Positions 1,881 through 21,304 of a DNA stretch of 22,922 bases are shown here, in pieces; position 1 is the stretch's first letter; each line of letters starts with the position of its first letter. The position numbers and the translations under genes are program-made. The stretch is from a virus, in IMG/VR virus record IMGVR_UViG_3300028384_000668, positions 43,775 through 66,696 of that record. The stretch is one strand, 5' to 3'. The notes under the pieces are model-generated. The model ran no database searches. It was not told where the DNA came from and saw nothing but the letters and a program-made list of their open reading frames with translations.

Positions 1881-1888
1881 TATTTATC
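1881..1888 (-). promoter_or_regulatory. T4-type late promoter-like box (GATAAATA)
   Basis: On the minus strand this reads GATAAATA, matching the NATAAATA form of the T4-like late promoter that is known from T4 (TATAAATA) and marine relatives. It overlaps the stop codon of the giant gene and lies about 20 bases upstream of the ATG of the 204-aa virion protein gene, so a transcript would have a very short leader. In AT-rich DNA an eight-base match can occur by chance; the placement at a gene junction is the main support. Confidence 0.4.
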
Positions 1889-4800
1889 GTGGTAGCTCAG
1901 TTGTCTTGTCACGTAAGAACTTAGCAACGTTAGATTCGCTTTGTGCAATTGTTTCTCCAGCATCTGACCAAGTTCTTCCTAATTTTCTAAAGATATCTAC
2001 AGTAGTTCCAATAGGCGGTGGTGTAGTTAATCTTACATATGCGCCTATGTTTTTATTTACTGCAAATTCTGCTTCAAGTGTTGTGTCGCCTTCTGGACTG
2101 TCTTGATCTAAGTAATTGTAAGAGCTTATAGGTGTTTTACGCAATCTACGTCCTGCAACAAACACTTCAATATCTTGTGCTTCCCAATACTCCTCTGGAA
2201 TAGTATCTTTATACCAATCTGTTGCGCTTGCCGGATTAGGAATAGGTGCATAAGGTAGCAAAATTTGAACATATTTAATTCCTCCAGGAACTACAAAACT
2301 AGTTTGCGGAGTGTCAATTGGAATACTTGTAAATGGATTTACAACAATTAAATCAAATGCTCCCGGTACGTTAAAGCCTGGAACATCAAATTCTAATTGT
2401 GTGCTGCTAATATATCGTGTAGTAGCTTCTGTTTCACCTACATAAACTTTTACACGCTCAGTAAATCCTTCGCCTGTTACTGTGCAGACTTGCTCGTATA
2501 CACCTTCAACTCTTACAGGGAATGCTGTATTGTTATTAAAGTTGTATTCAATATTTGTAACATTCATTCCTGAGCTGTTTTCATACTCCTCAGATCCTTG
2601 ATCGTATCCCCCTGAAGTAACTGTTAAACGATCAACTTCGTCTTTGTAAGGAAGTGTTGCATCAGGACCTTGTTCCATAAACATTGTACCGGCTTCGTAA
2701 ACGTCTTTAATGCCAGTACCTAATGTACCTCTACGAAGTTGTAGTAATGTATTGTTTTCTCTACCAAAGTATTCAATGCGCTCACCTTCAATAAAGATAA
2801 CGCCCGGATACTTTGAATCAGTTTCTGGATCAGAAAGACTAGTTGCATCAACAACTTCAATTGTTTTATCGTACCAATTTAACGGCTGAGCCAAGTGGTA
2901 TACTTCTTGCAAACGCTTGTAGTGTGTTCTGTTAAGCATGTCTTTAAACTGTCTCCAGCCAAACTTATCAACAATAACACTGTCTGCAAAGTGAATAACT
3001 TGCAACTTATCCCTTTCTGCAGGCTGTTCAGCTAGTTTTACATACTGTTTGTTTGATGTTACAATATAGTCAACATTTGGTATCAACATAGTTCCATTTT
3101 TAACAACCCAAACGTATTGTGCATCTCTTGCTGGCTTACGTAGTGTGATATATCCTTTTTGTAATAGTGCAAAACTATAATACAACGGAGTACCTGGAGT
3201 TGTTTCAGTTTTTTCCGTAACTTCAAAGCTCTGTCTTTCAATGCCCTGGCTCTTGTCATTACTAAACTGATATACTTCTATTTCTTGATCTTCAGCAAAA
3301 ACTTCGTTAAAGTAGATTGTTTGCGGAGTTTTAATAAATTCGTTATCAGAATCTAAGTAACCCATAGCATACTCGCCACTAGTTATAACATAAACTTTTA
3401 GTTCGTCGCCAGCTTCACCAATGCCTTCTGTTAGTGTTAGTGTTGATCCTGGTTGTGATTGCGGGTCTAGTGTTGAATCAAACGACCCTGCACCTTCAAA
3501 AGTCCAAGTTTGCAAGTACTCTAGTTCAATATCATTTAGGTATACTACTAAATCATAACTGTTAACACTTGCTACAGGAATCTGTGTAAGATCCAACTGA
3601 TATTCTCTTTGATTAGCTTTTACTTCAAAACTTTGACTATAGCCAGGATCTAAAATTCTATTTCCTACCTTAACAAGTACAAATGCCTGCTCTGGATTAT
3701 CTTCAAATGGTGCTTGAGATAATTCGTATGCAGTAGTACTCCCGTCTGCTGTAATTTTGTCAATAGTTACTGTGCTGTATTGTTGTGGTACTTCAACGCC
3801 GCCGGCAGCAATTAGTAATTGAATTACTGAATTTTCTGCAGGAGGAGTAGCAAATCTAAGAACAAAGTTATCGCTACGCTCATAAGTGTCGTCTGATTCG
3901 ATTAGTACGGCATCTGCTGCTACACCGTCAACTGTTACATACACATTAGCATTTTCTTCAAATCTTGCATTGGTTAAGAAATCAATAGCAGAGCCATTAC
4001 CGGTAAATGTATCAATTTCTAATACAGTCGTTGCACTAAAGCCAACATTGACAATACTAACTTTAGAGTTATTTGCAGGCGCACTATTAAAGATCAGTTT
4101 GTTTGTTGCAAAATCAAATGTGTAATCGTCTTTAGTTTTGATTACATAATCTACTTTTACAAACAAGTTTTCGATTTGTGTTATTGTCGAACCAATATCA
4201 AATTCTGTTTTAACACCGTTGCCAATATAATTTGTAGAAGTAATTTGACTTGCGCCGCCAGTTGGTTTTTCAAACACTTGAATATCAAGTGTATCAAGAA
4301 CTTGTCCTGGTACAATTTCTTCAGGACCTTTTGAAGTAGTTTGAGTTACAAATCCGTCACCGTCAATATTAATTTCAGCTGCATCAAGTCCTGTAGCAGT
4401 CGAATATGCTAGGTCGCCGCCGCTTACAGCAGTATCATAACTTTCTAGATCAGCAATAAAGCTACCATCTGAAGTATTTTTACGAACAATAATAGTAATT
4501 GTTTGTTCTGTACTATCTTCAACGTCTGTAGGAACACCTAGTTCGTCTAAGTATAAAACAGTTGTTTCGCCGTCGCCTTGTAACGGTAACATTACTGCAT
4601 GTTCATTATCTTCTGTACCTACAGTAGAGCCGTCCCAATTAGGATCGTCCATTCTGCGGTTGCTTACTATTTGTCCATTAATATCATAACTTACTCTGTA
4701 TAAATTATATTCAACACCGTCTTCTAACGGATTAGTTAATGTAATAGATATAGTTGATCCATCAAGTCTAAAAATCTCATCTTCAAACGTTGTATCGTAT

Positions 4801-7800
4801 ACGTCCCAACCTTGAGACATCCAAGGCGCTGCGTTCCAGCCAGTTGTGCCGCCAAATTCAAACGAACGTACTTCAACGCCACCATAGTCAACACCGTCCA
4901 TTAACTGACCAAGTGTCTTACCAAAGTTATCACCTGTTGGCTCGTATGCTAGGTTAATACGATCTTGTGCTTTTAGCAAGTTAAGTGATTTATAATACTC
5001 AATTCTAATTTCTGAGCCGTCTGCTGGAGGATCAACAAATTGAATTTGACCATAATACCTATCATAGCCTTTAGACGTATCTAAAACATTGCTATAAGTG
5101 TACCTTCTTGACAATACTTCGTCGTTGTCTTCAAAAACAGTAACTCGGCTTGTTCTTAAATCCATTGGCCATTTTAAATCAAAGTTAAATGTCTTGCCGC
5201 CGGAAATAAATGTTTCGGTAGTGTCTAGATTAACAAATTCATATGTTCCACTAACTCTGTCAAACTTAATTGATGTTTGTAAACTTCTTACTGGACTGTC
5301 GCCGATAATAGCAAATGCTTTTGCTTCTCTGCCATTTGGTCCTACAGAACCATTAATAGTTACAATCGGTGCTTCAAGATAACCGTTACCTTGATTAACT
5401 ACAATAATAGCACTAATAGAACCGTTACGCCCTAATGTTACTTTAGTAGTTGCACCAGTGCCGCCGCCGCCACTTAGTGTTGCTACAGGCGGTGTTTCGT
5501 ATCCTTCGCCAGCATCTGCTAGTTCAATTCTTATAACCTTATAACCTGCATTGTCTAACCAGTTTTTATTTGGATATGTATTAACTTCTTCAACATTATC
5601 AGCAACAATTCCGTCCGGCGATGCTTTAACACGTAATGGCTGAATGCTATCGTCCGCAGCTACATATCTAGCAGGTAAATCAAAGTCTGTTGTAACAGTT
5701 TGAGAATTGTCTAATGCTTCGTAAGAACTTAGATATTCTCTAACTTTTGTTTTATACGGTTTGACTTCTCTAATGTATTCTTCATAACTAGGAAGATTGT
5801 CGTTTTGGAAGTTTACTTTTTGTTCTAAATTGCCAACATTGTGTTTTGCTTTTAAGAAACTAGTTTTGAACACCCAGTCTACATAATTTTGTTCTGCAAA
5901 TACATATCGCAAACTTGAGAAGAATAAGTTGTTATATTCTAACAACAAGTCATCGATAAACACATTGTCTTTAATTGTATTAAGAATAATTCTTGTTTCA
6001 GTCGACGGTAAACTATCAAATGTTAAAACGTCATAACTTGTTGTGTCAAAACCTACTAGTGCTGCTGTTGAATCATATAGTGTAGGACGAATTTGAATAG
6101 TTCCGTTTTGTCTACCAATTGTTTTATAATTTACACTATAGTCAACACCTGTTTGTGCATCAATTTTTTGTAGTAACAACCATCCGCCGGTGCCAACGTT
6201 TTGAATTTTAATAACATCGCCAATAGAATCATTAATAGTTGTTAAGTCATATGAAAAATCAATAATATAGTCAATTTTTGTAAATGCATTGTAGTTTTCT
6301 GCATACCAATCAATATATTCCCAATATAAGTTTACGTCATATGCTTGACTTTCTACCAAGATCCATTCTTTTGCAACAGTGTCACGTTCATAAAGTGACC
6401 ACTTGCCATTTAAAGAAGTATCATTTTTAACTAATACTGTGTAACGTCTTACTGATAATTGTGTACTACTGCTATAGTTAGTTCCAGTACTTTCTACAAT
6501 TACATCAGTTACTCTGCCTTGATTATCAATAACTGTAGTAAGTTCTGCATCAGTACCTGTGCCCAATACTTTAACTGTTGGTGCTTGTAAATAACCTCTT
6601 CCTGCGTTTGTTATCTCTACACGGATAATTTTACCATCTTCTACAACAGGTGTTAACACTGCTTGTTCAGCTTTAGCAACGCCAACAAATTGTAAATCTA
6701 TTAGTGCGTCAACGCTTCTATCCCAGCGTCTACTTTGTTCAGTAGGTTCTGGTTGACTCTGTGTTAATGGTGTAATGTCTTTATCGTCTGCAATTAAGTT
6801 TGCCGCTAATACACTATTAATACGAGTAACAACTTGTTTAAGAGCTTCTTCTCTATTAATAAACCACCCTTGTCTTGGTCTATTAAGAATACCATACTTT
6901 TCTTTCGCACTTAATTCTGGTGCAGGAACTTGTCTATTCTGCTCATCATAACCTACTAAGCTATCAAACCATTTTTTCTGTATGTCTCTACCAGGAAGAC
7001 TTGTTTCTAATCCTTCAGTTATGATTTGATATTGATTATGAATATTTGTATCTTGGTTATCAATTGTCCAGTATTGCATACTCAATACAATATCTTGACT
7101 TCTTACTAGACTTTCGCAATTGTGTACTGCAAATTGGTCATTGCCAATTAAACTAACAAATCTGTATCCCTGTGCAGCAGGATCTTCAATTAATCTTGCA
7201 ACATCACGAGCACTAGTTCTTCTATCTTCTACTGGCGGAAGTGTAGTTTTATTTCCTACCCAATAGTAATAGTACGTCTTAAATACACCAACTGCTTCGT
7301 TATACTCTCTTTTAACTACATATGCATCGTCACCGTTTTTAGTAGTACCAGTAACGCCTTTGGCTAATCCTTCACTAGTTCCGCTAATGTTATCCCACTC
7401 GCTTGGTAATAGATCTGACTTTACCCATTCGTAAACGTCAATAGTATTAATACTAGCAAATCTGCTATTCCAGTTGTTAGAACTAAAAATTACGTCAGAC
7501 TGATACGGATTTTTAAACTTAGCAGAATTTAAATCCCACCATAGTTGACCAACCTGTGTAGATCCCCAACTGTTTGTTGCGTCTGTGTTAGGTAATGTGC
7601 CAGTTGTGTATGTTGCAGGATCATAATAAGTTTTGTATGTTAATTCTTGTTCTGCAGGTCCTGCAATCTTACCTTGAAGAACATCAATATAATCAATGTA
7701 ATCAACAATTTTGTTAGTACTTTTATCGTACAACATAGCACGTTTAATTTTACTTACATCAACTGTGTCTTTAGATTGTCTTAGTGTGTTCCAAATCTTA

Positions 7801-10800
7801 GTATTTTCTTTTAGTCTATAGTTTACAACAACGCCTTGTTTTGTATCTGTATCTAATATCGGTAATCCTACATAAATGTGATTATTTTTTAGCAATATAT
7901 TTTCGCCAAAGAATAATACATTAGGAACATCATAATCGATAGTTTCTGCATAGATTAACGATTCGTCTAATTTTTCATATACCCTAACTACTCCAGTGTC
8001 TTTACTAAAGGCTTTAAAGTCAGTCATCTTATTATCAAATGTAGTTTGTGGAGCAGTATTTCCTACACTATCTCCGTCAAATGTAGTTGAAATAAACGAA
8101 TCTCCGTTGCGTGACCCTACAATTAACCTTTCGCCGTCAAAGTCTACACTCCATCCAAATAGTTCTGTTTTTTCTTTAGTAGGACTGTATAGATTTTGTG
8201 ATAGTGTAAATGTTCCGCTTTCCTGTTTATAAACATAAACTCTACCTTGGTCTAGCTGTTCAGTATCGTCATAAGGTGCACCGACAGCAATCAAGCGTCC
8301 GTCATTGCTAACTGCTACATTGTTGCCAAAATTAGTATTTTTATTTGGTGCTTGTATTGTTTGATATCTATAATAAGAACCGTTATTATTTCTGTATACT
8401 TCGACAGTATTTGCAGTTTCGCCTTCGTATTCTGTAGTAACTACTAGTATCTCTCCATTTTTACTAATATCAAACGCTTTAGCAAACTGTAATAATGCAG
8501 TGTCTTCAATTACTGCTTCTTGATCTCCTACAATGTTTCCAGTAGTATTAGGCAAGTAACCTAGATAATCAGATACTTCACCTGCTACAACTTCTTCCCA
8601 GTCGTTAGCAGTAAACGCACTTGGTCCTGTAGTTGTAAGTGCTTTATACAATTTTTGATTGTAAAATACCAATTCGTCTGCAAAATAAGTTGTGTCAGAA
8701 TCGTATGGTCCTCTATAAGATTTATTTCTTGAAGATTCCCATCCGTATGTAACACCGTCAAATGTTCCATTTTTGTAAATGTAAAGTTTACCAAAGTTAT
8801 CAGTTGTATTGTTACCTGATGCTTTAACAAATAGTTTATCGTTGGTGCCGCTACGAGAAATTTTAATATCTATACCTAATTGACGATTGCTTGCTCTATC
8901 TGAAGCAATATAAGAATTAATTTTTACAAAAGAACCAATTCCTCGTCTTTCATATACACTAAACATACCTTCGTTTGTTTTAGTAGTTGCAGGAACAACA
9001 CCAGACGCTGTTGCAGGAACATTATATATAATATCCCAGTCGTTGTTGTCAATAGTTGGCTTATTAGCAGCTCTAGGAATACCTAGTACAGTTTCTTCTC
9101 TATAGAACCAATATTCGCCAGTAGTAATAGTATCTTCTCTTGTTGCAACGTCCGCATCAACATCCTGTACCGGAATATTGTCGCCGTTGTCAATAACAAT
9201 AAACTTACCAATATTGTCAGGAGCATATTCAAAACTTCTACCAAAGATCTGACCAAATACACGTTGTCCTGAAATAGGATCATAAACAACATCGCCCGAA
9301 CCGTCTGATAAAAATTCAATTTCTCTGTTTTCATTAAAATCAGAGCCAAGTGCCCATGTTCCTGTAACATTCTTAACAAAAATCCTACCGTTGTTAGTGT
9401 CGTACTTTTGATAGAATACAATTTCAGCAGTACCTAAGTTTGTTACATCTCTTACTGTTAGTCCTACTTTAGGTTCTAAAGGTTCGCCGCCAAACTGTTT
9501 TGTAATTCTAATATCAATATAACCGTCCCACACATCATATACTGTATGCTGTGTATTAATTTGATTTTCTGTTAATCCAATATTAGATAGATCTCTGTCA
9601 CCAAGTTCGTTTGTTAAAAACGGAGGCATTGTATTATAGAAAATATCCAGCGCAGGATTGCCGTCATCGCCTGCTGCAATTATTCCAGTTTCTAATTCAT
9701 CTGTCAACGGCTTAGGAGCTTTAAGGACGTACAAAGACGACTCAAAGTCTCCAATTACACCGAGTGGTCCTGGACTACCTCTATAACTTAGAGTAATAAG
9801 TTTGTTATACTCAGTATCTCTACTGTTTACTGTAGTATTTGCATAGTCTAAATTGTTGTAATAAAAACGATTTAAGTCTGAACCTGTTGTAGGAGTAACA
9901 TCTACAAACACAAGTCCTCTGCCTAGATCACTATTAATATCGTCGACTACCTGATAAGAACTAGTATTAATTCTCCAATAGCCTCCCCAATACTCATCAG
10001 CATTTGCCTGTGTATCGTTAGGTGCTACAGTTTCATATTCACCAACAAACTCACCAATGTCTGTTGTTAACGAACCTACTAATCCAAATGTACCGTTTTG
10101 TGCTTTAATATAAATTGTTGCCTTTGCGCCAACATTAAACGTATATGCAACTGTACCAAATCCAGATATTGTTTCAACAACTTGTCCTACTAACGGAATA
10201 GTGTTTGAGTTTTCAACATACAAAATACTGTCAATTTTTTCTGCAATAGTATGTTTATCAGTTAAAAACGATGCAGATAATTCCGGAATATCTCCGTTAA
10301 ACGGTAATACTGACACAGGCGTTACGCTATTCTGATTAGCATAAGTTAGATCGTTCCATTTAAGTTTAACACTATCACCAATGCCAGATCCTTCGTACAT
10401 GTCCTTTGGTGCTTTAACTATAAAGTGATCTGTAAAGAAATCGCTCTGTACTTCATCTGTAGTAAACGGATAGTCGCCTGTGAGTATTACAGGTTTAATA
10501 TCGTCGTCTTCTTCTGTTTGTAACAAGTCAATCATAATCTGCGGAACTGATTCAAAACTTCCAAAAGGAATTTGAGCAGTCGCGCCGTCTACGTCCTTGT
10601 TTGCTTGCCAAAGGTTGTTTTTATATTCAACAATATCAAGTGCATCATAGTTTGTTTCTTCTACATACGTTTCTTTGTATGTACTTTTAACATTAGATGC
10701 TTTTGGAGATCCAACAATTAAATATCTACCATCAGCCGAAACTGCAATACTGCTACCAAATGCTTGCCCACTATCAGCAATTTCACTTTCTGCTTCAACA

Positions 10801-13800
10801 ACTTGATTAAGTTGAAACGATCCAGATCCGCCTGCTCTAACATACACAAACACCTTTCCGTCACCATTGTCAGGCGCACCTACGCATAGTAATGTGTTAT
10901 TGTCACTAACTGCAAGAGCATACCCATAGTTATGATCTATTCCAGATTGCGAGTTTTCAATCACTTGATGATTATTAAATCCTGGTGTGTTTTCTAAAAC
11001 TTTCCAACGATTAGATTCATCTGCATCTACCCATACTCTACTAATACCTTGTTTATACGTTTGTACTAATTCGCTTGCTTGCTCGTAGTCTGATACTCTT
11101 ACACTGACAAATTTAGAAATAATACTGTTGGTTATTGTTTCCAATGCATCAATTTCTGTATTGTCAATTGTTACGATATTGTTTAAAATTTTTGTAATCT
11201 TTGTAAAAATTTGTACATTATTACCGTCTGCATTTGTATATTCAACACCAATAATTTCATCTACTACAAACTGTTTTGGAATTGTTGCAAATTGTAACTG
11301 TTTGTTATCGCCATCTTCTAATACTGCTTCAAGTACTATATCTTGCTGTAGGAAAGAATACACATCCCATGATTGTCCTACATTGCCTATCCATACAAGG
11401 TCTCTATGACTAATGTCGCTGTATTCAATGTTTACAATAGAATCGTATTCGTCTATTACAAACTGTACATCTTCATCGTTTACATATCCGCTATTTCTTG
11501 TATACGTTTCATTAACATACTTTGTCGGAAATGGCTTGTGATTATAATCATTAGGACGCAAATACACTTCAAATGGCTTAATTCTATATACTAAATCAGT
11601 TTCTTCGCCTGATGTAGTATTAACTAGTTGTACGCTCTGAGGTTCTAATTTAAATTTACTTTCATCTAAAATAAATTCTACTTCTTCAAATCCTTCAGCT
11701 GCACCGTATTGACCAGTTTTAATTGCCCATTCTTCGTAAAATTCTAGGCTATCTTTATCTGCACTGCCTAGCACATCAAATAATTTTGTAAGAGCATTTT
11801 TAGTACCTTTATCTTGGATCATGCCCTGATAAAATTTATACTGGCTTACATCATCGTTAATAATATTTGCTAAGTAATCTCTATTTTGATAGCCAATTAA
11901 ATGCTGTGCAAATTTTTGCTGCTCAGTGTCAAAGTTGTCAGTATCTAGATCATAAAAATCTGCAAACTGGTTTGTTTTATATTCAAAGTTAGGAATCAAT
12001 TCCATTTCAGGAACATCATTTAATAAAGACCAATTCCTTGCTTCAAAGTTTTGTGAACCAGCAACTTTATTAATAGCACTATAGTAAAACTCTTTGTATT
12101 TTACAATTTCACCAATAGCATAATCTTGCCACGGTTCCCATTCACTAACTGTTGCGTTATCAAATATAAATCCAGGAATATTTAAACTACCGTCCCAGTC
12201 ACCTGTTCTATAACCTAAAACCTTAATACGCTGCTGTCTATACCCAGGTTCCTGATCGTAAATAATGTCACCAAACACTGTTTTATTATCAATAGTAACA
12301 ACATGTTCTTTTTGAACTAAAGATAAGCGTACAGCAAAAATACCATCTTCTGTTGCTTTAGGCCTTACTACGAACTCTTGCGGATTTTCTCTAGTTAAAG
12401 ATACGTTTTGTGGCTGTAGTTTTTTGCCGTCTGCTTTTAATAAACTGTATCCATAAAATGTATCATAGATATCGTCAACTATCGAATATTCTGATCTAAA
12501 TTTAACTTGGAATGCGCCCGGACTTAGTGTAATAACACTTCCTGCTCCCCAGTTTTGAGTTGTCCAGAACATAAACTCTTTAGCAGTTGTTTCCCAATTT
12601 GAAACAAATTCACTGTCAGGTGCATAGTAATCAAAAACAAATCCTTGACTTTCTAGATAGTATCCGTATCCTAGTAAAAAGTCTACAACATCTTGTACTT
12701 TTTCAAACACAGTTCCGTATGGAACACGTTCTACATTATTTTTGTATGCTTTTCTAAAATATGCTTCGCGGCCGCCTTCTTGAGGAAGTTGAGGCAGTTT
12801 AACAAACTTGTCAGTGTCAAATTCTGTTCCGCTGGTATGAGACTCAGTAACTCTATAATACGAGCTTTGGAATCCTACAATAGCATCTTTTACATAAGTT
12901 TTATTTCCATCCCATTCAACATAACTTGCACTAATTCCGCCAATTCTAATTACTGGATCGTTTTGTAGTGAAATGGCTTTATTGATATCAAAATACGGAG
13001 CTTCTCTATCATAACCTCTTACAATGAATCCGTAACTTTGTTTTTCTATAATAACACCACTATATGTAATATTTTTAACAGGCGCACTGGTATTCAAAGA
13101 AATTTTATAGTTTTCTTCAGGAATAAAAACGTTTCCTTTATTTGTAGGAGTTCTACTATCAAGTATTAATTTAAATTTGTCTTTGTTAGTATAACCGCCT
13201 ACTTTAAAACCAATTTGATTATTAATACGTTTTAAATTATCTTTATAAGTGCTATACGGTGTTTCAACGTTAGAAGCAAGATAATCAAATACATAATTTA
13301 TTAAGCCCGATGAATATGCTCTAGTATCTTCATTAACAGTATTAGGAAATACAACATCTTCTAAATTAATTACAGTATTATTGTTAATGTAATTAATTTG
13401 ACTAGATGTTCCTCTAAACTGACGCTGTCTGTCAAAGATAGTTGCAAATGTTTGAGCAGGCTGATTAAGGACCAGCGAAGTAATTAGCGAAAACGGATAT
13501 TCTGAACTTCTGCGCCACGCTGTTTCTACAGGGCTATAATCACCAAATACAAAGTTATTATCAAGTTCGTTAGTGTTATATGTTTTAATAAAACTACTTA
13601 AAACAGGACTAACTAAATTTCCATCTTCGTCAACAGGAATATGAGTAGTAATAAATTTACGTGCTACCTTGTTGTTTATCATACCGGATGTATTTGGATA
13701 TCTAATAATACCTGCTTCAATATCTTCCCACATCAAAAAGTTGTTTTTTGTATATGGTGCTTCGCCGTACTGGTTGTCCCACCAGTCTGGTTTAATACTA

Positions 13801-16800
13801 AACCCTTGCATTTCCCAAGGATGCGTATGCGGGCGATCAGTATCATATGCATACTTGTATACTGCTCTCCAATAACCGTGTACACGGTTATCACTAACAT
13901 CTACCATTCCTGTGTGATTAAATGTAAACGAATTTTCTCTTTCGTATGCATTATTTTTTGTATAATCGTCATCTACCAATTGTAGCCATTGTACAAAATC
14001 GCTGATCATACTATCATTAATTTGATTTTCAGTTAATCCTGTTTTTCTGTTGTATCCAGGAATGTAATCGTAAAGATCAAATAAATTTGCATCATAATTT
14101 ACTTTAATATTATTAAAAATTCGTTTTTCTAACTCAAGTAATAAGTCATCTCTAAAATCTTCATAAGCTATGGTAATACTTCCGTCATGACCTTGAATAA
14201 CACTTTGGCTTTCTAAGTATGTGTCGTCTGTCATTATTTGAGGGACAAACTTAGGATACAATCCTAACTTAGTTGGTGTTGGTGGAATGTAGCTACCGTT
14301 AGTTGTTTCGTATTCGTAAATATCAATAATGTCGCCTTGCTGTTTGGTAGCTGTAACAATAACAAAGCCTTGATTGTTAAAAGTATAGTCTACACCATTT
14401 ACAAGTTGCTCTCCGTTTAAATAAACCTGTACTGCTGTATCACTAAGTGTTTCTAGGTCAAACACTCGACTTAATGCAAAAAAGTTGTTTTCTGAATCAA
14501 ATACTTCTGTAGAATTTTTAATTGCACCGGTAAATGGAACCATATCACTAAAGTAATAAGGCATTGTATTAACTTTGTCTTTTGTTAATTCATTTAAAAT
14601 AAGATCAACATGATCTTTTACTGGGCCGCTAAACCCTAGCTGTTCTGCTTTTTGTAAGAACGATCTTTTAAATTTTCCATATTCTCTTCTTGCAAATTTA
14701 AGAGATTTAATTACATTTGCATCTTTATTAACAATATGATATACTGGAATGTTAAGTGGAGACGAGTGTTTTACAATACGTTTACCATATTTAGATATTG
14801 ATCCTAAATCTCTTAAGTTACTAGATCCTGGAAATATTCCATCAAAAACATCAAGTTCTTCAACAATAGTACTAACGTGATCGTTAACTTCTCCTAAGGT
14901 AAATTCATTAATGTTTTTGTTTAAAGGATTCTTTTCTAAGTTACTTGCAATTTCATATTTTCCGTTTTCAGTTTTAGACGCACTTGACTTAGTTTTAATA
15001 ATAATATTGTCGCCAATTTCAAGAGGAGAAGTAAAACTAATTGTAAGATTAGAATTAGCATCCTGAGATGTTGTATAATCTTTATCTTTAAATTTTAAAG
15101 AATTGTTAACATACACTCTTAACCACAAGTCATCTAATAACGCACTTTGCTCATAAACGTCTACAGTATAAAATGTTCGTGTGTTATCGTTAGTATACTG
15201 TCTTATCACAGGCTGAGAACTTAACTCTTTTGCTTTGGTCCAACCGTTTAAAATTTCATACGAATCTCTTCCTGTATATTTTCTAATATACCCTTCACTA
15301 ATTTTTTTAGTCTGAGGAAGTTCGTTTGTTGCTGCATAAGTTAGTGAATCTTGTAGGAAATTACATTCAAAAACAATGTCGCCGACGTTTTCAATATTTC
15401 GATATGTTAGAGGAAAACCTAATTCTACATCATTAGATCCACTTGCTCTTTTATAAGAAAATAGCTCGGTACCTTTGAATGTCGAAGACTCAAAATAAGA
15501 GTCATCTGCATAACTGTAGCCGCTATCGTCAAACGCATCAAACAGGGGCTGTTGATTTAATGTAGTTTTTTGTTGTGCGATTTTCCAATCTGTACCATTG
15601 AACCAAAGCATACTTCCTTTAAATTCTGTACCTTGTTTACAAAGTAATACTTCGTTTTCTAAAGGGGTTGTATCTGTAGCTTCTTTTAAAGTAATTTGTC
15701 TTGTATTTCTAAAAGTAATAAACTCTACTTCAAAAATTTTACCCTTTACTAGAGGATCAGCATCGGCAGTAAATAAAATTCTCATGCCATTGGTTAGATC
15801 TACATCGTCAATATTATAACCTTGTGAGCCTTCAATAGTACTAAAAACGTCACTAGTAAAATTATCTACAAGATCAACACTTTGCTTAATACTTGTACCA
15901 TAATTAAATAGTTTTAAGTTAGCTTCAAATTCAATAATAGGACGAGTTGCACGAGCTGTTTGATCAAGATCAACCAACTGATTATTAATTTTTGCACTTG
16001 CTTCAATTACATCTTTGTGGAACCATCTGTTGTATTTTGACCATAAGTTCCCGTCTTGACTTGCTCTGTTAATTGTAATATAATCTTTGTTAACAGGATA
16101 CCCAATCGCTTCTGAATAAGGAAGTTCATCAAATCCTTCATCGTCAAAGTCTACTAATAAGTCTGACGTATATGAACTAGGAACATTTAACTCAGTTTCT
16201 GACATAAGAACAATACTGTTACCAACACCTTCCACATACCAAAAACCATTAGCATACTTTTCAGGAGTTACTTTTCCAGTAAACTCTACTTTCATACCAT
16301 TAGAAAGTTTAATACCTGCTTCACTAGTATATGTTTTAGTACCTAAGATTTCTTGTTCAACATCAATCGATGTAGCTTCAGTTATATCTAAAACATTAAT
16401 TGTGCCACTAGCATATAAGTCGTTATCTGACATATAATAAATTAAGTCAGGAGTAGATGTAGTAAGCTCAACTTCAATTGTTCCTGCTTCAACACTTTGT
16501 TGACTTACTTCTGTACGTAAGTTAAATGCTGTATCTAGATCCCAAAAGTCTAAATCTAATTCGTCTGTTGCTACATGATCTCCGTTACAAACGTAGATGC
16601 CGCCATTGTAATTTACTTTATCACCTTGGATATAAGTTACGTTTGGTCTAAATCTAGGAGCAGTATCTTTTCTAGTTCTAAAAGAAAGTGGATTACCAAC
16701 TGCATCAACTTCAAATATATATTTGATTCCTCTAAACAATGTTAACACAGGATTTTGTGTTTTTCCGTCAGGAGTAAACACATAACCAAAGTTTTCACCG

Positions 16801-17333
16801 TTGTCTACTGTAGTAACTTTAATAGTTTTTTCAACGTTATCTTTTTCGCCCGCAATTTGAACAGGACGAGGTCCATTTGGCAACCAATAGTATTCACGGA
16901 AGTTTGTAAACTTGTCCCAGTCAATATTAGGATTCCAAGAGTAATATTCTTGTCTATTAAGGATACTATGATCTTTAACACTTGATCCTAGTGCAGAAAG
17001 TTGATTAATATAATCATTGTAATCTGCATAAAATTGAACATTATTTAAATCGTCTTTCACAACTACCGCAGGTTCAAATTGATAATCTTCTCTTGACTTT
17101 GAAACATCACCAATATAAAAATCGTCTTTGGTATAACCTTTGGCTTCTTTTTGTCCAAAATATCCATTTAACTTTTCAGCAACACCTGGCTGTATTAGTT
17201 GGTCAATTGTACTTGAAAGAAACTTGTTATTAACCTGTGTTCTAAAATATCTAGGTAAGTGATCTGCACTTTTTCTACGATTATTCTTACCTGCTGGCAA
17301 GTTAGTAGGATTTTGATCGTCGTTGTATGCCAT
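1884..17333 (-). CDS. Giant multidomain baseplate/virion structural protein (5149 aa), in the position of gp7
   Basis: This is a single uninterrupted reading frame of 5149 codons. It starts with ATG at 17333 in a TAATG overlap with the gp6 stop, with GGAGG at 17346-17350 (spacing about 12). T4 gp7, the wedge protein in this slot, is 1032 aa, so this is about five times longer; gp7 equivalence rests on synteny only. No signal peptide, membrane segment or enzymatic motif was recognised. Visible modules by residue: W/Y-rich carbohydrate-binding-like modules (CBM5/12 style) near 230-265, 1472-1513, 1731-1772, 2228-2262 and 2880-2913; an aromatic block with DRPHTHPW near 1150-1190; FG-GAP-like propeller blades between 2137 and 3172 with a ~578-residue insert at 2211-2788; G-x-G-Y repeats near 3566-3630 and 3928-3995; tail-fibre-like beta modules from about 4058 to the end; and an IPT/TIG-like domain near 4944-5014. 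A peripheral wedge component with several sugar-binding or trimeric appendage surfaces is inferred. It is certainly coding; the molecular role is less certain. Confidence 0.85.
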   Translation of the reverse strand: MAYNDDQNPTNLPAGKNNRRKSADHLPRYFRTQVNNKFLSSTIDQLIQPGVAEKLNGYFGQKEAKGYTKDDFYIGDVSKSREDYQFEPAVVVKDDLNNVQFYADYNDYINQLSALGSSVKDHSILNRQEYYSWNPNIDWDKFTNFREYYWLPNGPRPVQIAGEKDNVEKTIKVTTVDNGENFGYVFTPDGKTQNPVLTLFRGIKYIFEVDAVGNPLSFRTRKDTAPRFRPNVTYIQGDKVNYNGGIYVCNGDHVATDELDLDFWDLDTAFNLRTEVSQQSVEAGTIEVELTTSTPDLIYYMSDNDLYASGTINVLDITEATSIDVEQEILGTKTYTSEAGIKLSNGMKVEFTGKVTPEKYANGFWYVEGVGNSIVLMSETELNVPSSYTSDLLVDFDDEGFDELPYSEAIGYPVNKDYITINRASQDGNLWSKYNRWFHKDVIEASAKINNQLVDLDQTARATRPIIEFEANLKLFNYGTSIKQSVDLVDNFTSDVFSTIEGSQGYNIDDVDLTNGMRILFTADADPLVKGKIFEVEFITFRNTRQITLKEATDTTPLENEVLLCKQGTEFKGSMLWFNGTDWKIAQQKTTLNQQPLFDAFDDSGYSYADDSYFESSTFKGTELFSYKRASGSNDVELGFPLTYRNIENVGDIVFECNFLQDSLTYAATNELPQTKKISEGYIRKYTGRDSYEILNGWTKAKELSSQPVIRQYTNDNTRTFYTVDVYEQSALLDDLWLRVYVNNSLKFKDKDYTTSQDANSNLTISFTSPLEIGDNIIIKTKSSASKTENGKYEIASNLEKNPLNKNINEFTLGEVNDHVSTIVEELDVFDGIFPGSSNLRDLGSISKYGKRIVKHSSPLNIPVYHIVNKDANVIKSLKFARREYGKFKRSFLQKAEQLGFSGPVKDHVDLILNELTKDKVNTMPYYFSDMVPFTGAIKNSTEVFDSENNFFALSRVFDLETLSDTAVQVYLNGEQLVNGVDYTFNNQGFVIVTATKQQGDIIDIYEYETTNGSYIPPTPTKLGLYPKFVPQIMTDDTYLESQSVIQGHDGSITIAYEDFRDDLLLELEKRIFNNIKVNYDANLFDLYDYIPGYNRKTGLTENQINDSMISDFVQWLQLVDDDYTKNNAYERENSFTFNHTGMVDVSDNRVHGYWRAVYKYAYDTDRPHTHPWEMQGFSIKPDWWDNQYGEAPYTKNNFLMWEDIEAGIIRYPNTSGMINNKVARKFITTHIPVDEDGNLVSPVLSSFIKTYNTNELDNNFVFGDYSPVETAWRRSSEYPFSLITSLVLNQPAQTFATIFDRQRQFRGTSSQINYINNNTVINLEDVVFPNTVNEDTRAYSSGLINYVFDYLASNVETPYSTYKDNLKRINNQIGFKVGGYTNKDKFKLILDSRTPTNKGNVFIPEENYKISLNTSAPVKNITYSGVIIEKQSYGFIVRGYDREAPYFDINKAISLQNDPVIRIGGISASYVEWDGNKTYVKDAIVGFQSSYYRVTESHTSGTEFDTDKFVKLPQLPQEGGREAYFRKAYKNNVERVPYGTVFEKVQDVVDFLLGYGYYLESQGFVFDYYAPDSEFVSNWETTAKEFMFWTTQNWGAGSVITLSPGAFQVKFRSEYSIVDDIYDTFYGYSLLKADGKKLQPQNVSLTRENPQEFVVRPKATEDGIFAVRLSLVQKEHVVTIDNKTVFGDIIYDQEPGYRQQRIKVLGYRTGDWDGSLNIPGFIFDNATVSEWEPWQDYAIGEIVKYKEFYYSAINKVAGSQNFEARNWSLLNDVPEMELIPNFEYKTNQFADFYDLDTDNFDTEQQKFAQHLIGYQNRDYLANIINDDVSQYKFYQGMIQDKGTKNALTKLFDVLGSADKDSLEFYEEWAIKTGQYGAAEGFEEVEFILDESKFKLEPQSVQLVNTTSGEETDLVYRIKPFEVYLRPNDYNHKPFPTKYVNETYTRNSGYVNDEDVQFVIDEYDSIVNIEYSDISHRDLVWIGNVGQSWDVYSFLQQDIVLEAVLEDGDNKQLQFATIPKQFVVDEIIGVEYTNADGNNVQIFTKITKILNNIVTIDNTEIDALETITNSIISKFVSVRVSDYEQASELVQTYKQGISRVWVDADESNRWKVLENTPGFNNHQVIENSQSGIDHNYGYALAVSDNNTLLCVGAPDNGDGKVFVYVRAGGSGSFQLNQVVEAESEIADSGQAFGSSIAVSADGRYLIVGSPKASNVKSTYKETYVEETNYDALDIVEYKNNLWQANKDVDGATAQIPFGSFESVPQIMIDLLQTEEDDDIKPVILTGDYPFTTDEVQSDFFTDHFIVKAPKDMYEGSGIGDSVKLKWNDLTYANQNSVTPVSVLPFNGDIPELSASFLTDKHTIAEKIDSILYVENSNTIPLVGQVVETISGFGTVAYTFNVGAKATIYIKAQNGTFGLVGSLTTDIGEFVGEYETVAPNDTQANADEYWGGYWRINTSSYQVVDDINSDLGRGLVFVDVTPTTGSDLNRFYYNNLDYANTTVNSRDTEYNKLITLSYRGSPGPLGVIGDFESSLYVLKAPKPLTDELETGIIAAGDDGNPALDIFYNTMPPFLTNELGDRDLSNIGLTENQINTQHTVYDVWDGYIDIRITKQFGGEPLEPKVGLTVRDVTNLGTAEIVFYQKYDTNNGRIFVKNVTGTWALGSDFNENREIEFLSDGSGDVVYDPISGQRVFGQIFGRSFEYAPDNIGKFIVIDNGDNIPVQDVDADVATREDTITTGEYWFYREETVLGIPRAANKPTIDNNDWDIIYNVPATASGVVPATTKTNEGMFSVYERRGIGSFVKINSYIASDRASNRQLGIDIKISRSGTNDKLFVKASGNNTTDNFGKLYIYKNGTFDGVTYGWESSRNKSYRGPYDSDTTYFADELVFYNQKLYKALTTTGPSAFTANDWEEVVAGEVSDYLGYLPNTTGNIVGDQEAVIEDTALLQFAKAFDISKNGEILVVTTEYEGETANTVEVYRNNNGSYYRYQTIQAPNKNTNFGNNVAVSNDGRLIAVGAPYDDTEQLDQGRVYVYKQESGTFTLSQNLYSPTKEKTELFGWSVDFDGERLIVGSRNGDSFISTTFDGDSVGNTAPQTTFDNKMTDFKAFSKDTGVVRVYEKLDESLIYAETIDYDVPNVLFFGENILLKNNHIYVGLPILDTDTKQGVVVNYRLKENTKIWNTLRQSKDTVDVSKIKRAMLYDKSTNKIVDYIDYIDVLQGKIAGPAEQELTYKTYYDPATYTTGTLPNTDATNSWGSTQVGQLWWDLNSAKFKNPYQSDVIFSSNNWNSRFASINTIDVYEWVKSDLLPSEWDNISGTSEGLAKGVTGTTKNGDDAYVVKREYNEAVGVFKTYYYYWVGNKTTLPPVEDRRTSARDVARLIEDPAAQGYRFVSLIGNDQFAVHNCESLVRSQDIVLSMQYWTIDNQDTNIHNQYQIITEGLETSLPGRDIQKKWFDSLVGYDEQNRQVPAPELSAKEKYGILNRPRQGWFINREEALKQVVTRINSVLAANLIADDKDITPLTQSQPEPTEQSRRWDRSVDALIDLQFVGVAKAEQAVLTPVVEDGKIIRVEITNAGRGYLQAPTVKVLGTGTDAELTTVIDNQGRVTDVIVESTGTNYSSSTQLSVRRYTVLVKNDTSLNGKWSLYERDTVAKEWILVESQAYDVNLYWEYIDWYAENYNAFTKIDYIIDFSYDLTTINDSIGDVIKIQNVGTGGWLLLQKIDAQTGVDYSVNYKTIGRQNGTIQIRPTLYDSTAALVGFDTTSYDVLTFDSLPSTETRIILNTIKDNVFIDDLLLEYNNLFFSSLRYVFAEQNYVDWVFKTSFLKAKHNVGNLEQKVNFQNDNLPSYEEYIREVKPYKTKVREYLSSYEALDNSQTVTTDFDLPARYVAADDSIQPLRVKASPDGIVADNVEEVNTYPNKNWLDNAGYKVIRIELADAGEGYETPPVATLSGGGGTGATTKVTLGRNGSISAIIVVNQGNGYLEAPIVTINGSVGPNGREAKAFAIIGDSPVRSLQTSIKFDRVSGTYEFVNLDTTETFISGGKTFNFDLKWPMDLRTSRVTVFEDNDEVLSRRYTYSNVLDTSKGYDRYYGQIQFVDPPADGSEIRIEYYKSLNLLKAQDRINLAYEPTGDNFGKTLGQLMDGVDYGGVEVRSFEFGGTTGWNAAPWMSQGWDVYDTTFEDEIFRLDGSTISITLTNPLEDGVEYNLYRVSYDINGQIVSNRRMDDPNWDGSTVGTEDNEHAVMLPLQGDGETTVLYLDELGVPTDVEDSTEQTITIIVRKNTSDGSFIADLESYDTAVSGGDLAYSTATGLDAAEINIDGDGFVTQTTSKGPEEIVPGQVLDTLDIQVFEKPTGGASQITSTNYIGNGVKTEFDIGSTITQIENLFVKVDYVIKTKDDYTFDFATNKLIFNSAPANNSKVSIVNVGFSATTVLEIDTFTGNGSAIDFLTNARFEENANVYVTVDGVAADAVLIESDDTYERSDNFVLRFATPPAENSVIQLLIAAGGVEVPQQYSTVTIDKITADGSTTAYELSQAPFEDNPEQAFVLVKVGNRILDPGYSQSFEVKANQREYQLDLTQIPVASVNSYDLVVYLNDIELEYLQTWTFEGAGSFDSTLDPQSQPGSTLTLTEGIGEAGDELKVYVITSGEYAMGYLDSDNEFIKTPQTIYFNEVFAEDQEIEVYQFSNDKSQGIERQSFEVTEKTETTPGTPLYYSFALLQKGYITLRKPARDAQYVWVVKNGTMLIPNVDYIVTSNKQYVKLAEQPAERDKLQVIHFADSVIVDKFGWRQFKDMLNRTHYKRLQEVYHLAQPLNWYDKTIEVVDATSLSDPETDSKYPGVIFIEGERIEYFGRENNTLLQLRRGTLGTGIKDVYEAGTMFMEQGPDATLPYKDEVDRLTVTSGGYDQGSEEYENSSGMNVTNIEYNFNNNTAFPVRVEGVYEQVCTVTGEGFTERVKVYVGETEATTRYISSTQLEFDVPGFNVPGAFDLIVVNPFTSIPIDTPQTSFVVPGGIKYVQILLPYAPIPNPASATDWYKDTIPEEYWEAQDIEVFVAGRRLRKTPISSYNYLDQDSPEGDTTLEAEFAVNKNIGAYVRLTTPPPIGTTVDIFRKLGRTWSDAGETIAQSESNVAKFLRDKTTELPR
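9555..9578 (-). repeat. 24-bp near-identical repeat, copy 2 (encodes GLTENQIN)
   Basis: The plus strand reads attaatttgattttc, then t, then gttaatcc. It differs at one of 24 positions from the copy at 14016-14039. Both copies lie in the same reading frame of the giant gene and encode the identical octapeptide GLTENQIN (residues 2586-2593 here). The repeat may be a remnant of internal module duplication or a short shared structural motif. Confidence 0.6.
14016..14039 (-). repeat. 24-bp near-identical repeat, copy 1 (encodes GLTENQIN)
   Basis: The plus strand reads attaatttgattttc, then a, then gttaatcc. It is the partner of the copy at 9555-9578, about 4.5 kb away in the same gene. It encodes GLTENQIN at residues 1099-1106, just before a conserved-looking segment beginning DSMISDFVQWLQLV. 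Confidence 0.6.
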
Positions 17334-20300
17334 TAGTAACTAAGGCCTCCACTTGTTGAGCTGCTACTTGTATTTGAACTACTTTGAATTCCTGTAGATG
17401 CAGATGTAACACTTGTAACTACTGCACCAGTTGATTTTAGTCTGCTTGCTGTAATTGCGTCAATAATTTCAACGTTTTCTACAGTTGCACCGCTAATAAA
17501 AATTTCATCAGATTCTGATTTAATCTCTTGTAGTGATCCGTATGCTTGATCTTCTTGCACAGGAACAATTACAAAAGTAACTAGACTAGGCGATAGTTGA
17601 CTCATTACATAATTTGACAATTCTGAGAAGTAAAATTTTTCGCCAAAGTCCCAATTATCTAATGCAAAGAATTTATTAATTGCACTAATTACATTAGATT
17701 TAATTTCGTTATCATTTAAAACTAGATCTGGGTTTTTAACTATTTTAAATGTTGCTTGCAAGTCTTCTTTTGCCTTGTTTCCAAAAAGTACTTTGTACTT
17801 AACCGGATGATAGATAATTTCATCACTTAGTGATTTAATTTTATTAAGCTCTCCGCCAAAACTAATGTATAAACTATCGCTACTCGGAGGTAATGGCTTA
17901 TCTGCAAAGACTCCGTCTAGCCATTGTCTAAATATTGTGTCGTAACCTCTAGTTAACAAGTATGTGTCAATAATATTACTTGCACTAGGGTCGATTCTAC
18001 TATTTTGATCCGCAGCGTGTACATACTGGAATTTTAAACCATCGCGACCAATGCTTGCTTTGTAGTCTGTTGTAATTGATAGCGTAGTAGTATTTGCATC
18101 AAACACTTCAAAAATATCTTCTTCTTTGTAGTACAAAATGTCACCGTCTTCGTATGTACTTAACGGCTGTCTTTCAGATACTGAATTTATAATAAGTTGT
18201 GTTGGATTTCTAAATACTGTTTCTTTGCTAACGTACTTGTAGTCTTCTACACCATCTGTTGAAGTACTCTTTTGTAAGAATACTAATTTGTTTAAAGGTG
18301 ATGTTTCTTCGTCTACAATATCGTCAAATATTTCTGGGTTATCAACAACACCGTCGTCATCATCATCAAAGAAACTTACTTGAATTTTTCTACTATCTAC
18401 ATATCCTTCTGCGTCACGATATTCTTCAACAATTTCCCAAGGATAATCAACATTAAACGGATTTGAAGAGTCAGGCTTTGTATTAATGTTTAAAACATTA
18501 ATCTTATCCTTGACAATTTTACCAGTTTTATTGTTGTAGATTTTGTCGCTGCTATCATAATAGAATCTAATATCTTGATCACTTTCGAATACATAACGCA
18601 TAGCACGGTGTGTAATAGTATATTTTTCACCATCTGTATTGAACTTTAAAAGCCAACTTGCATCAAGTTGCTGGCTCGAAGTGTCGCCTGTTTTACCTGT
18701 ACTAAATTCACTGTTTGCAGCAAGATTGTTTTCTGTAATAAGTCTCCACTCACCATCGTTTCTTGAAAATCTTAAACCAAATGTTCTATATGCAAATACT
18801 TGTGCAGTAACTTGTGCTTTAACATCGTCTGTTAGTGCCGACGGTAATGCAGTTCTAACTTCTACTAGCTTTGATCCTGTTGGAATGCTGTCATTGAACA
18901 CAATTGGTCCTGAATCGTCATCTTGTATTTCTGTGCCGTCTCTAACAACACTAATAACTTTTACCCATTTATAACTTGTACCGCCACGATAGTCAGGAGC
19001 ACCTGGTTCTTCTTTGCCGTTAAGGAAGTGATAGCCGTCACGTGGAACAAATTTAAGTAACGAATTTGGTTTTACAAACTTCATATTAGAGCCTGTAAAT
19101 GTTCCTACTTTAATTAAAACTCCTGCAGAGTTAGTTAATCTACCTGTAAATTTATTTGTATCTGTTGTAATTTGCGTCCAGGTGGCACCAAGGTCTTCAA
19201 CTAACAGTTTAGGAAACTGATCATAATAATAATTTCTTACTTTAATACTAGAAAGAATAGGCTCAATTGTGTTTACAATTTGGCCTTCAATATCTGTAAG
19301 AGTTTCAAAATTAAATCCTGTTTTAAGAGTTAGATAATTTTTATAAATTGCGCCATCTGTACCAAACAGATTTGTAGTAGAATATTTTCCTGTTGCATCA
19401 ACTAAGTCAAAGTTTCTACTAATTCCACTAGATATTCTGTTTACACTTTTTGCTTTTACAATTTCTTGACTTATGCCTAAAGGTCCTACTTGATAGTCTT
19501 CGCCAGTTATCATTCTATTCTGAGTATAGTATGACGAAGGTGCATTTTTCTTAATACTTGCGTTTGATTCTGAAATAGTAGAATTATCAACAGAATTTTT
19601 TAATTCAAGTGTAAGTGTAATTGTTTCTGCCGTACCTGCTCTTGAGATATACGGAATACGTACTGCAATACCTCTTAAGTTGTCAGGAGAAATAATCAAT
19701 CTTTGATTTTTACTTGTGCGATAATATACGCGGAAGTTGCCTTGCGGCAAATTACCAAATACACCATCTGAGAAAATTAAGCTAATTCTATCCTCAATAC
19801 GTGTTAGCACACTGTAGATATTACGGATGCTTTTATTTAAACTGTTATAGATAACATTGTTACCTTCAATTGCTTCTACTTTAGTCCAAAGTTCTTGTTC
19901 GTTTCCTAAACTATCTAGTTTGTAAAGCCATACATCTGAATTGTTTACATTACGTGCATCAACTGCAACGACTTGACTTGTTGAAGGATTAGTTACATTA
20001 AACTGTCCTTGATCCATTGTGCCCTGACGGAAATGTGTAAAGAAGCCCGAGTTTGAACTTGCTACACCACGGCCGTCATCTCTGTACAAAAATGCAAAGT
20101 TATTACCAGGAAATGGTGCTTCTTCAATAATGTCTGTGTCTGTAATGTCTGTGCTTACAACTTCAAAGCTAACACTTTTTCCGTCAACTGTTTTTGAAAA
20201 ACTATACACAGGAACTTCTGTATTTGTAGAATTCATACGATATTGTTCTGTAGGAATTCCGCTAATTGTTTCTCTTTTAACAGGTCGACCAAATGTTCCG

Positions 20301-20857: not shown

Positions 20858-21304
20858 TTATGCAAGGAAGCCGGCATTTTCATCAAATTTTAAACGCATT
20901 GTTTCTGATATATTGTAGGGCAAATAAGTTAGTGTACACTCAATTTGTATGCCACTTTCGTATGTTGATACTGTAATGTTATCAACATTTGCTCTAGGAT
21001 CATAGTTAATAATTCTAGAAACATTTTTAATAATTGCATCTCTTAATTGGTCAGTAAGAGGTTCAAACAATATATCCCAAATAATAGTTCCAAACTCAGG
21101 ATCGCTTAATTTTTCACCTTGCCTAATATGAAAATTATTAATAATATCCTGTTTGATTAATTCAATGTCATACAGTACCCATTCAGCAGCATCAGGATTA
21201 ACAGTACTAATACCTCTATAAGCCCTAGACTCCGGAACAACTTCTTGTTTCTGATTACTAGGAACAACAATTTGTTTGTATATGTTTTTCTCTTGTGTAC
21301 TCAT
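20858..21304 (-). CDS. 25: Baseplate wedge protein gp25 (T4-like, TssE/gp25 family)
   Basis: This is a 148-aa protein close to the usual gp25 length (T4 about 132 aa). The recognisable core is RAYRGISTVNPDAAEWVLYD (28-47), NNFHIRQGEKLSDPEFGTII (56-75) and WDILFEPLTDQLRDAI (76-91). The last of these contains the family's conserved FEP-x-T segment. In T4 and contractile injection systems, gp25-family proteins sit in the baseplate core, contacting gp6 and gp53 and nucleating sheath assembly, so the gene's place directly before gp6 is functionally sensible. The start at 21304 has AGGAAG (21315-21320) ten bases upstream, overlapping the stop codon of the gp5 gene, which suggests coupled translation. 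A 57-base gap separates it from gp6. No anomalies were seen. Confidence 0.95.
   Translation of the reverse strand: MSTQEKNIYKQIVVPSNQKQEVVPESRAYRGISTVNPDAAEWVLYDIELIKQDIINNFHIRQGEKLSDPEFGTIIWDILFEPLTDQLRDAIIKNVSRIINYDPRANVDNITVSTYESGIQIECTLTYLPYNISETMRLKFDENAGFLA

Follow-up and report, generated by a model that had tools for sequence, protein, structure and literature searches.

A predicted seven-bladed FG-GAP_2-type beta-propeller with one-sided insertions in a giant phage structural protein encoded beside baseplate wedge genes

Does the motif that recurs within a giant protein of an uncultured phage build a closed beta-propeller, and what would such a propeller do in a baseplate? The stretch analysed here (the window) comprises 22,922 nucleotides, positions 43,775 to 66,696, of the IMG/VR virus record IMGVR_UViG_3300028384_000668. 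Its largest open reading frame (minus strand, 17333 to 1884) encodes 5149 amino acids and matches PHROG 10938 ("virion structural protein") both before the propeller (E 7.9e-272) and after it (E 2.5e-61). A sequence-only reading of the window had proposed that seven copies of an FG-GAP-like motif in this protein form a seven-bladed propeller. Our analysis agrees with seven blades, and we give about an even chance to the reading in which the giant protein belongs to the baseplate wedge and an FG-GAP_2 propeller inserted into it serves as a one-sided docking or display platform.

All seven motif copies are present, at residues 2137 (nucleotide 10925), 2192, 2820, 2951, 3002, 3059 and 3142, as the sequence-only reading had placed them. 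Their FG-GAP character was borne out by Pfam FG-GAP_2 (PF14312), which matches the protein in three stretches (E 8.5e-16; 58.3 bits, cut-off 23), best at blade 5; throughout the window's own record FG-GAP_2 matches occur at three places, all in the frame of the giant protein. PF01839, which we take to be the accession of the FG-GAP repeat (integrin/VCBS type), was not among the Pfam families matching the giant protein at E ≤ 1. A blade hidden Markov model (HMM) was built from blades 1, 4 and 5, with 200 shuffles of the whole protein as control. Blades 1, 2, 4 and 5 came out at or above the shuffle limit (blade 2 with 8.5 bits, best shuffle 7.8 bits), blade 3 scored only 4.1 bits, and blades 6 and 7 were not detected by this model. 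Comparison of family profiles from 60 rows set 21 blade pairs against 150 control pairs, with the highest control pair as threshold, which is strict because two of the control pairs scored about 30; 11 of the 21 blade pairs exceeded it, among them one of the six that involve blade 3 and none of the six that involve blade 7. Taken together, the HMM and the family profiles, the latter adding blade 6, give support from sequence by itself to blades 1, 2, 4, 5 and 6. The case for blades 3 and 7 comes chiefly from their position, the predicted structure and a conserved FG-type dipeptide, which in the 60 rows reads LG (39), FG (11), IG (5) or VG (3) in blade 3 and FG (57) in blade 7. As proof of all seven blades the sequence was insufficient, blade 3 being weak and blade 7 lacking family-profile support.

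An AlphaFold2 model was built for residues 2060-3230 from an alignment of 15 rows. DSSP assigned 27 of the 28 expected strands, the sole gap being the outer strand of blade 2, in the order of an outermost strand (2122-2126), four strands in each of blades 1-6 and three in blade 7 (3145-3173), a tally that in this predicted structure matches the 1+3 scheme of a closed seven-bladed ring. In a second look at the Foldseek matches VIA-align aligned 978 chains, and every one of the 50 matches listed was an integrin alpha chain, with Z 28-31 and 3.1-3.6 Å over 345-368 residues among those listed. Model residues 57-1126 lie on integrin chain residues 1 to about 450, spanning the whole integrin propeller; alpha5 (9dia_A), for example, gave Z 29.1 and 3.1 Å over 360 residues, with model residues 58-1116 on chain residues 1-449. 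The candidate closing strand 2122-2126 is in place and included in this alignment, and would close the ring by contact with blade 7. Foldseek itself was less decisive, placing integrins (E about 5e-6, target TM-score about 0.3) among other propellers; since WD40, sialidase and paraoxonase propellers stand beside integrins in its top matches, it was not accepted as proving the number of blades. A profile of the region searched against the PDB found integrin alpha-6 first, at a weak E of 0.012.

The number of blades is also kept in distant homologues. The relative L118 is about 30% identical to the window row and L137 is 27% identical to L118; L118/L119 (slot of 651 residues) and L137 with its relatives likewise have seven repeats, their order is unchanged, and their inserts are far smaller. 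Thus the DSSP strands, the full-length integrin alignment and the repeat order in relatives all fit seven blades with classical 1+3 closure, and neither fewer blades, nor signs of an unclosed ring, nor unrelated sandwich folds, the outcomes that would have spoken against the earlier proposal, were encountered. A reading of the repeats as an open solenoid or as beta-sandwiches of unrelated kinds is very unlikely: the low confidence of the model, the weakness of blades 3 and 7 by sequence and Foldseek TM-scores of about 0.3, mixed with other six- and seven-bladed propellers, would suit such folds, but FG-GAP_2 scores above its cut-off, the VIA-align scores to integrins are high over 345-368 residues and seven repeats persist in three divergent forms. 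In its coordinates the earlier proposal placed the copies correctly and took too short a span (7818-10925), because the presumed closing strand precedes its first copy. The long gap between copies 2 and 3 proved to be an insertion that interrupts blade 2 itself instead of separating two blades.

In integrins, the 2-3 and 4-1 loops form one propeller face and the 1-2 and 3-4 loops the other; here we call them top and bottom. For the loops we aligned 60 rows less than 85% identical, drawn from 75 loci, with L118 removed and the window added. On the top face 11 of 14 loops hold an insertion of at least 20 residues in one or more rows, on the bottom face none of 13 (Fisher test with loops treated as independent, p 3.4e-5), and no bottom loop exceeds 12 residues in any of the 60 rows. 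The blade-2 loop (527-788 residues) and the loop between blades 3 and 4 (82-154 residues) are long in all 60 rows and the 2-3 loop of blade 6 reaches at least 20 residues in 59, the other long loops doing so in 1 to 12 rows. MAFFT misaligned blade 2 of L118 against the window family, and the loops of L118 and L137 were assigned by hand; every insert in them again lies in a 2-3 or 4-1 loop, L137 adding the blade-4 loop as a twelfth long top loop. The chain enters ahead of strand D in blade 7 and exits behind strand C, where a 3-4 loop would otherwise lie; by the predicted topology the carrier would therefore be joined to the undecorated bottom face. This one-face insertion rule suggests, concretely and testably, how giant baseplate proteins may grow: one side is fixed and fits onto the machine, and the other stays free to take up new domains. 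Two smaller observations concern the same loops: in L139 the blade 5-6 loop, on the insert-taking face, holds a ten-residue tandem duplication relative to its near relative L138, and the blade 1-2 loop of L118 holds a 100-residue insert with a weak PF16190 E1_FCCH match (21 bits, cut-off 29.5).

The N-terminal 2044 residues of the giant protein match 60 phage records at less than 60% identity; the best matches, Atu_ph07, the PA5oct group and Phosso, cover 81-83% at about 30% identity and are followed by SCTP-2 (76%) and then by RaK2-type phages and others. Both flank profiles match the giant protein in all nine named jumbo-phage homologues extracted (RaK2, GAP32, Munch, XbC2, SCTP-2, PA5oct, Atu_ph07, Phosso and Vibrio 2.275), with flanks 25-39% identical, and the propeller was found in none of the nine, the best whole-protein propeller match (E 0.0017) being a short stretch at a CBM-like insert outside the slot. 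Homology of the N flank fades near residues 2010-2027 and resumes near 3171-3197, and the insertion point is defined only this precisely. Between the flank profiles lie about 95-105 residues in RaK2, GAP32, XbC2 and Munch, 160 in Vibrio 2.275, about 360 in SCTP-2, about 1180 in the window and about 1520 in Atu_ph07 and Phosso; in PA5oct the length varies from about 90 to 280 residues with the counting of a weak second flank match. The propeller thus occupies a slot of variable content in an already known structural protein of jumbo phages, and a complete integrin-like FG-GAP_2 propeller would sit inside a giant wedge protein where other jumbo phages leave the slot short or fill it otherwise. 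In Atu_ph07 (L013) and Phosso (L041) the slots hold about 1500 residues of other sequence, that of Atu_ph07 being rich in GxGY..P.V-type repeats. No Pfam family above its cut-off was found in the six jumbo-phage slots tested, which included these two.

On the window's own side of the family the pattern is uniform. Scanning IMG/VR with the downstream flank yielded 584 relatives; the analysis used the best 80, a sample biased to that side (48-85% identity). Five loci without the N flank were left out (L057, L058, L083, L100 and L102); blades are nevertheless visible in four of these, and in L102 just 101 residues lie upstream. The remaining 75 cover the slot, and taking at least two blade-HMM matches above 9 bits as the mark of a propeller, all 75 contain one; FG-GAP_2 scored above its cut-off in six of seven relatives tested, the exception being L059 (22.3 bits). 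No close relative of the propeller clade was found among the 50,697 phage records searched, where blades 4-7 weakly matched three records, Phosso included, at E ≤ 1 and the L137 form had no match. None of the 119 candidate stretches from GTDB genome contigs was confirmed as a relative, and an alignment joining all jumbo phages gave no usable conserved stretch.

Since the slot is short or otherwise filled in jumbo phages, the carrier works without a propeller. This would agree with the propeller being mere bulk or spacing that enlarges the wedge, with inserts that are neutral or stabilise the fold and have no specific partner; RaK2-type phages have little or nothing in the slot, and Atu_ph07 and Phosso have about 1500 residues of other sequence there. 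We consider this improbable, because neutral growths would come and go and the blade-2 and blade 3-4 inserts are kept in 60 of 60 rows and the blade-6 insert in 59 of 60.

Modelled alone, the blade-2 insert (2210-2790) was predicted with high confidence (predicted local distance difference test, pLDDT, 91.3; predicted TM-score, pTM, 0.85). As a whole it gave no PDB match in Foldseek at E ≤ 0.001 and no VIA-align row at Z ≥ 8. In BFVD there were 18 matches at E ≤ 0.001, those listed having low TM-scores over long alignments, and short matches to wedge-initiator proteins (Aeromonas 65, CC2, Proteus PM2) at E 0.004-0.006. A known fold for the entire 580-residue insert was rejected, as there was no confident PDB relative and the BFVD TM-scores were low. 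Two small barrels within it resemble known modules. The barrel at 2369-2438 aligned with baseplate gp7 of KP1 (9f4a, Z 7.8 over 69 residues) and T4 (5iv5 and 5hx2, Z 7.3), with 21-26% identity over 69-72 residues, and a profile of this barrel found no gp7 in the PDB. The barrel at 2603-2701 resembles domain III of eIF2-gamma (Z up to 7.5, also in the ambiguous range of the tool), a common arrangement that carries no functional meaning.

The same insert carries CBM5/12-like sequence towards both of its ends. In L118 and L137 the blade-2 loop contains an uninterrupted CBM5/12-like module about 75 residues long, and in the window family both ends of the module are present with about 480 residues between them, from which it appears that a second insertion split the module. 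PF02839 (CBM_5_12) was matched at E ≤ 0.01 by the blade-2 inserts of 17 of 58 relatives, the window's own insert not being among these matches; in the window, residues 2877-2912 match it at E 1.2e-4 (22.5 bits, below the cut-off of 26.2), and the relative L059 reaches the cut-off with 31.3 bits.

These matches in and around the propeller, together with profile matches to chitinase CBMs (2rts, E 0.074), raise the alternative that propeller and CBM5/12-like modules form a receptor-binding device for host surface polysaccharide at first adsorption. The propellers of phi11 and PRD1 are receptor binders, or putative ones, according to PMC4901313. We regard such a device as rather unlikely. Blade strands have a mean pairwise identity of 0.41, against 0.36 in the blade-2 insert and 0.37 in both remaining inserts; the carrier has 0.31 just before the propeller and 0.55 just after it. 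The displayed modules are therefore about as conserved as their platform, across a diverse family and unlike typical host-range modules. Furthermore, the wedge place in the gene order differs from that of a distal receptor binder, and CBM5/12-like stretches are scattered across the whole giant protein and over tail proteins generally. Inserts nearly as conserved as the blades make a conserved structural partner or platform likelier than a fast-changing receptor binder in an arms race; this conservation speaks for conserved partners, such as other tail proteins.

We accordingly rank the docking or display platform first, the receptor-binding device second and passive bulk last. From the computed repeats, predicted fold, slot, lineage pattern and one-sided insertions we infer a position in the virion and a role in docking or binding. 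A whole FG-GAP_2 propeller would have been inserted into a baseplate-wedge component, with its bottom face joined to the carrier and its top face (2-3 and 4-1 loops) bearing every inserted module, namely the CBM5/12-like modules, the small beta-barrels and the 580-residue insertion in blade 2. The rigid platform would hold a fixed array of binding modules off the wedge; this array would most likely serve as a dock for further tail proteins (fibres or pins) and might also touch host surface glycans, with which the CBM-like modules and the baseplate site would be compatible as well. In favour of this reading we also count the gene order, the confidently predicted blade-2 insert with its gp7-like barrel and the tail-fibre-like genes downstream. 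Several points weigh against the docking platform. The confidence of the propeller model is low overall (mean pLDDT 56.7, pTM 0.47; most blade blocks 60-87), and the gp7-like barrel falls in the ambiguous Z range and has no sequence support. The insertion counts are alignment rows, not independent events, and the fold itself may simply require short bottom loops. Moreover, short top loops (identity 0.32-0.33) are not more variable than the bottom 3-4 loops (0.29), and CBM-like modules with modestly variable top loops would fit glycan binding too. In a bolder version, which we hold to be rather unlikely, the wedge in a large clade of uncultured phages acquired an integrin-like propeller, which became a one-sided hub; its bottom face would be fixed to the wedge, and its conserved, expandable top-face sockets would dock fibres or pins and relay receptor contact to the wedge; if true, it would be analogous to integrin heads that display inserted domains.

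The integrin alpha chains (alphaM, alphaL, alpha5, alphaV) share seven FG-GAP-type blades of the same extent with the window propeller, which is instead internal to a phage baseplate protein. Leukocyte integrins carry their alphaI domain on the top face, in between blades 2 and 3; a domain is thus inserted near blade 2 there too, the main insert of the window lying within blade 2 in the 2-3 loop. Integrin alpha chains carry calcium-binding 1-2 loops in the last blades, and these long loops are without counterpart in the window, where the 1-2 loops have 2-5 residues (at most 7 in the 60 rows). Compared with Pfam FG-GAP_2, blades 2, 3 and 6 are interrupted or trailed by large inserts.

Propellers in baseplates are already known, those found in print being five-bladed or terminal domains. 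PMC4901313 reports for phiKZ gp131 a C-terminal seven-bladed propeller at the baseplate periphery with unconfirmed function, for phi11 Gp45 a five-bladed baseplate propeller whose N-terminal strand closes the last blade, and for PRD1 P2 a distorted five-bladed propeller. By this account phiKZ gp131C (PDB 4GBF) is likewise seven-bladed in a myophage baseplate, C-terminal there and internal in the window protein, whereas phi11 Gp45 is a trimeric siphophage receptor-binding protein with five blades instead of seven. phiKZ gp131C was not among the VIA-align matches listed, and no FG-GAP propeller in a phage baseplate was found in the literature as judged from titles and the openings of abstracts. 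The jumbo phage Phosso has FG-GAP_2 repeats in XYS97267.1, but as a separate gene far from the baseplate genes; this protein, annotated as hypothetical (L048:3244-13245), shows 19 FG-GAP_2 stretches (562 bits) in the 3334 residues scanned and may form several propellers in a row.

Features of the propeller and of neighbouring genes in the window (nucleotide positions of the window; residues of the giant protein)
Feature	Position	Strand	Residues	Basis or remark
Seven-bladed FG-GAP_2-type beta-propeller, inserts included	7815..10970	-	2122-3173	PF14312, model strands, integrin alignment
Presumed closing strand D of blade 7	10956..10970	-	2122-2126	DSSP strand HQVIE; model residues from 57 align with integrin residues from 1
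Blade 1, strands A-D	10794..10919	-	2139-2180	DSSP, blade HMM, family profiles
Blade 2, strands A-B	10707..10751	-	2195-2209	DSSP, family profiles
580-residue insertion, 2-3 loop of blade 2	8967..10706	-	2210-2789	Loop table, own model
CBM5/12-like module, first half, start of blade-2 insertion	10548..10685	-	~2217-2262	Relatives match PF02839
Small beta-barrel resembling T4/KP1 gp7 module	10020..10229	-	2369-2438	VIA-align
Second small beta-barrel, like eIF2-gamma domain III	9231..9527	-	2603-2701	VIA-align Z 6.3-7.5
Split CBM5/12-like module, second half	9006..9101	-	~2745-2776	Conserved DW motif
Blade 2, strands C-D	8913..8966	-	2790-2807	D not flagged by DSSP
Blade 3	8733..8879	-	2819-2867	DSSP, dipeptide
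Insertion between blades 3 and 4 with CBM5/12-like module (2877-2912)	8475..8732	-	2868-2953	PF02839 E 1.2e-4
Blade 4	8352..8474	-	2954-2994	DSSP, family profiles
Blade 5	8187..8321	-	3005-3049	Best FG-GAP_2 match, DSSP
Blade 6, strands A-B	8109..8147	-	3063-3075	DSSP, family profiles
38-residue insertion, 2-3 loop of blade 6	7995..8108	-	3076-3113	At least 20 residues in 59/60 rows
Blade 6, strands C-D	7935..7994	-	3114-3133	DSSP
Blade 7, strands A-C	7815..7901	-	3145-3173	DSSP, dipeptide
Giant structural protein, propeller host	1884..17333	-		5149 aa; open frame; PHROG 10938 on both sides of propeller
gp6-like baseplate wedge protein	17333..20800	-		PHROG 10646 and 219 "baseplate wedge subunit"; directly upstream of giant protein
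gp25-like baseplate wedge protein	20858..21304	-		PF04965 GPW_gp25, 31.7 bits, cut-off 27.2

The T4-type baseplate gene order is gp25, gp6, gp7. In the window the gp25-like and gp6-like genes are followed by the giant protein, all on one strand, and the latter thus occupies the place of T4 gp7. A gp7 chain was not found in the PDB by a profile of residues 1-2044 of the giant protein, and because the profile searches gave no sequence match, the carrier was rejected as a proven gp7 homologue, the gene order and one ambiguous barrel being all that stands in favour. A gp6 gene also adjoins the giant protein in loci L004 and L005, and in eight of the nine jumbo-phage records a large gp6- or wedge-type or CBM-annotated gene lies just upstream. 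Elsewhere in the giant protein, CBM_5_12 scores above its cut-off near the N terminus (residues 229-255, 41.3 bits) and an IPT/TIG domain lies near the C terminus (residues about 4948-4999; 22.7 bits, cut-off 20.9). Tail-fibre-like genes follow in locus L004 and likewise downstream in the window's own record. Among ten proteins scanned from these downstream genes (C1:5000-43774; L039, L040), two match tail-fibre or virion structural families and four match PHROG radical SAM families, and such a radical SAM cluster next to tail genes is unusual.

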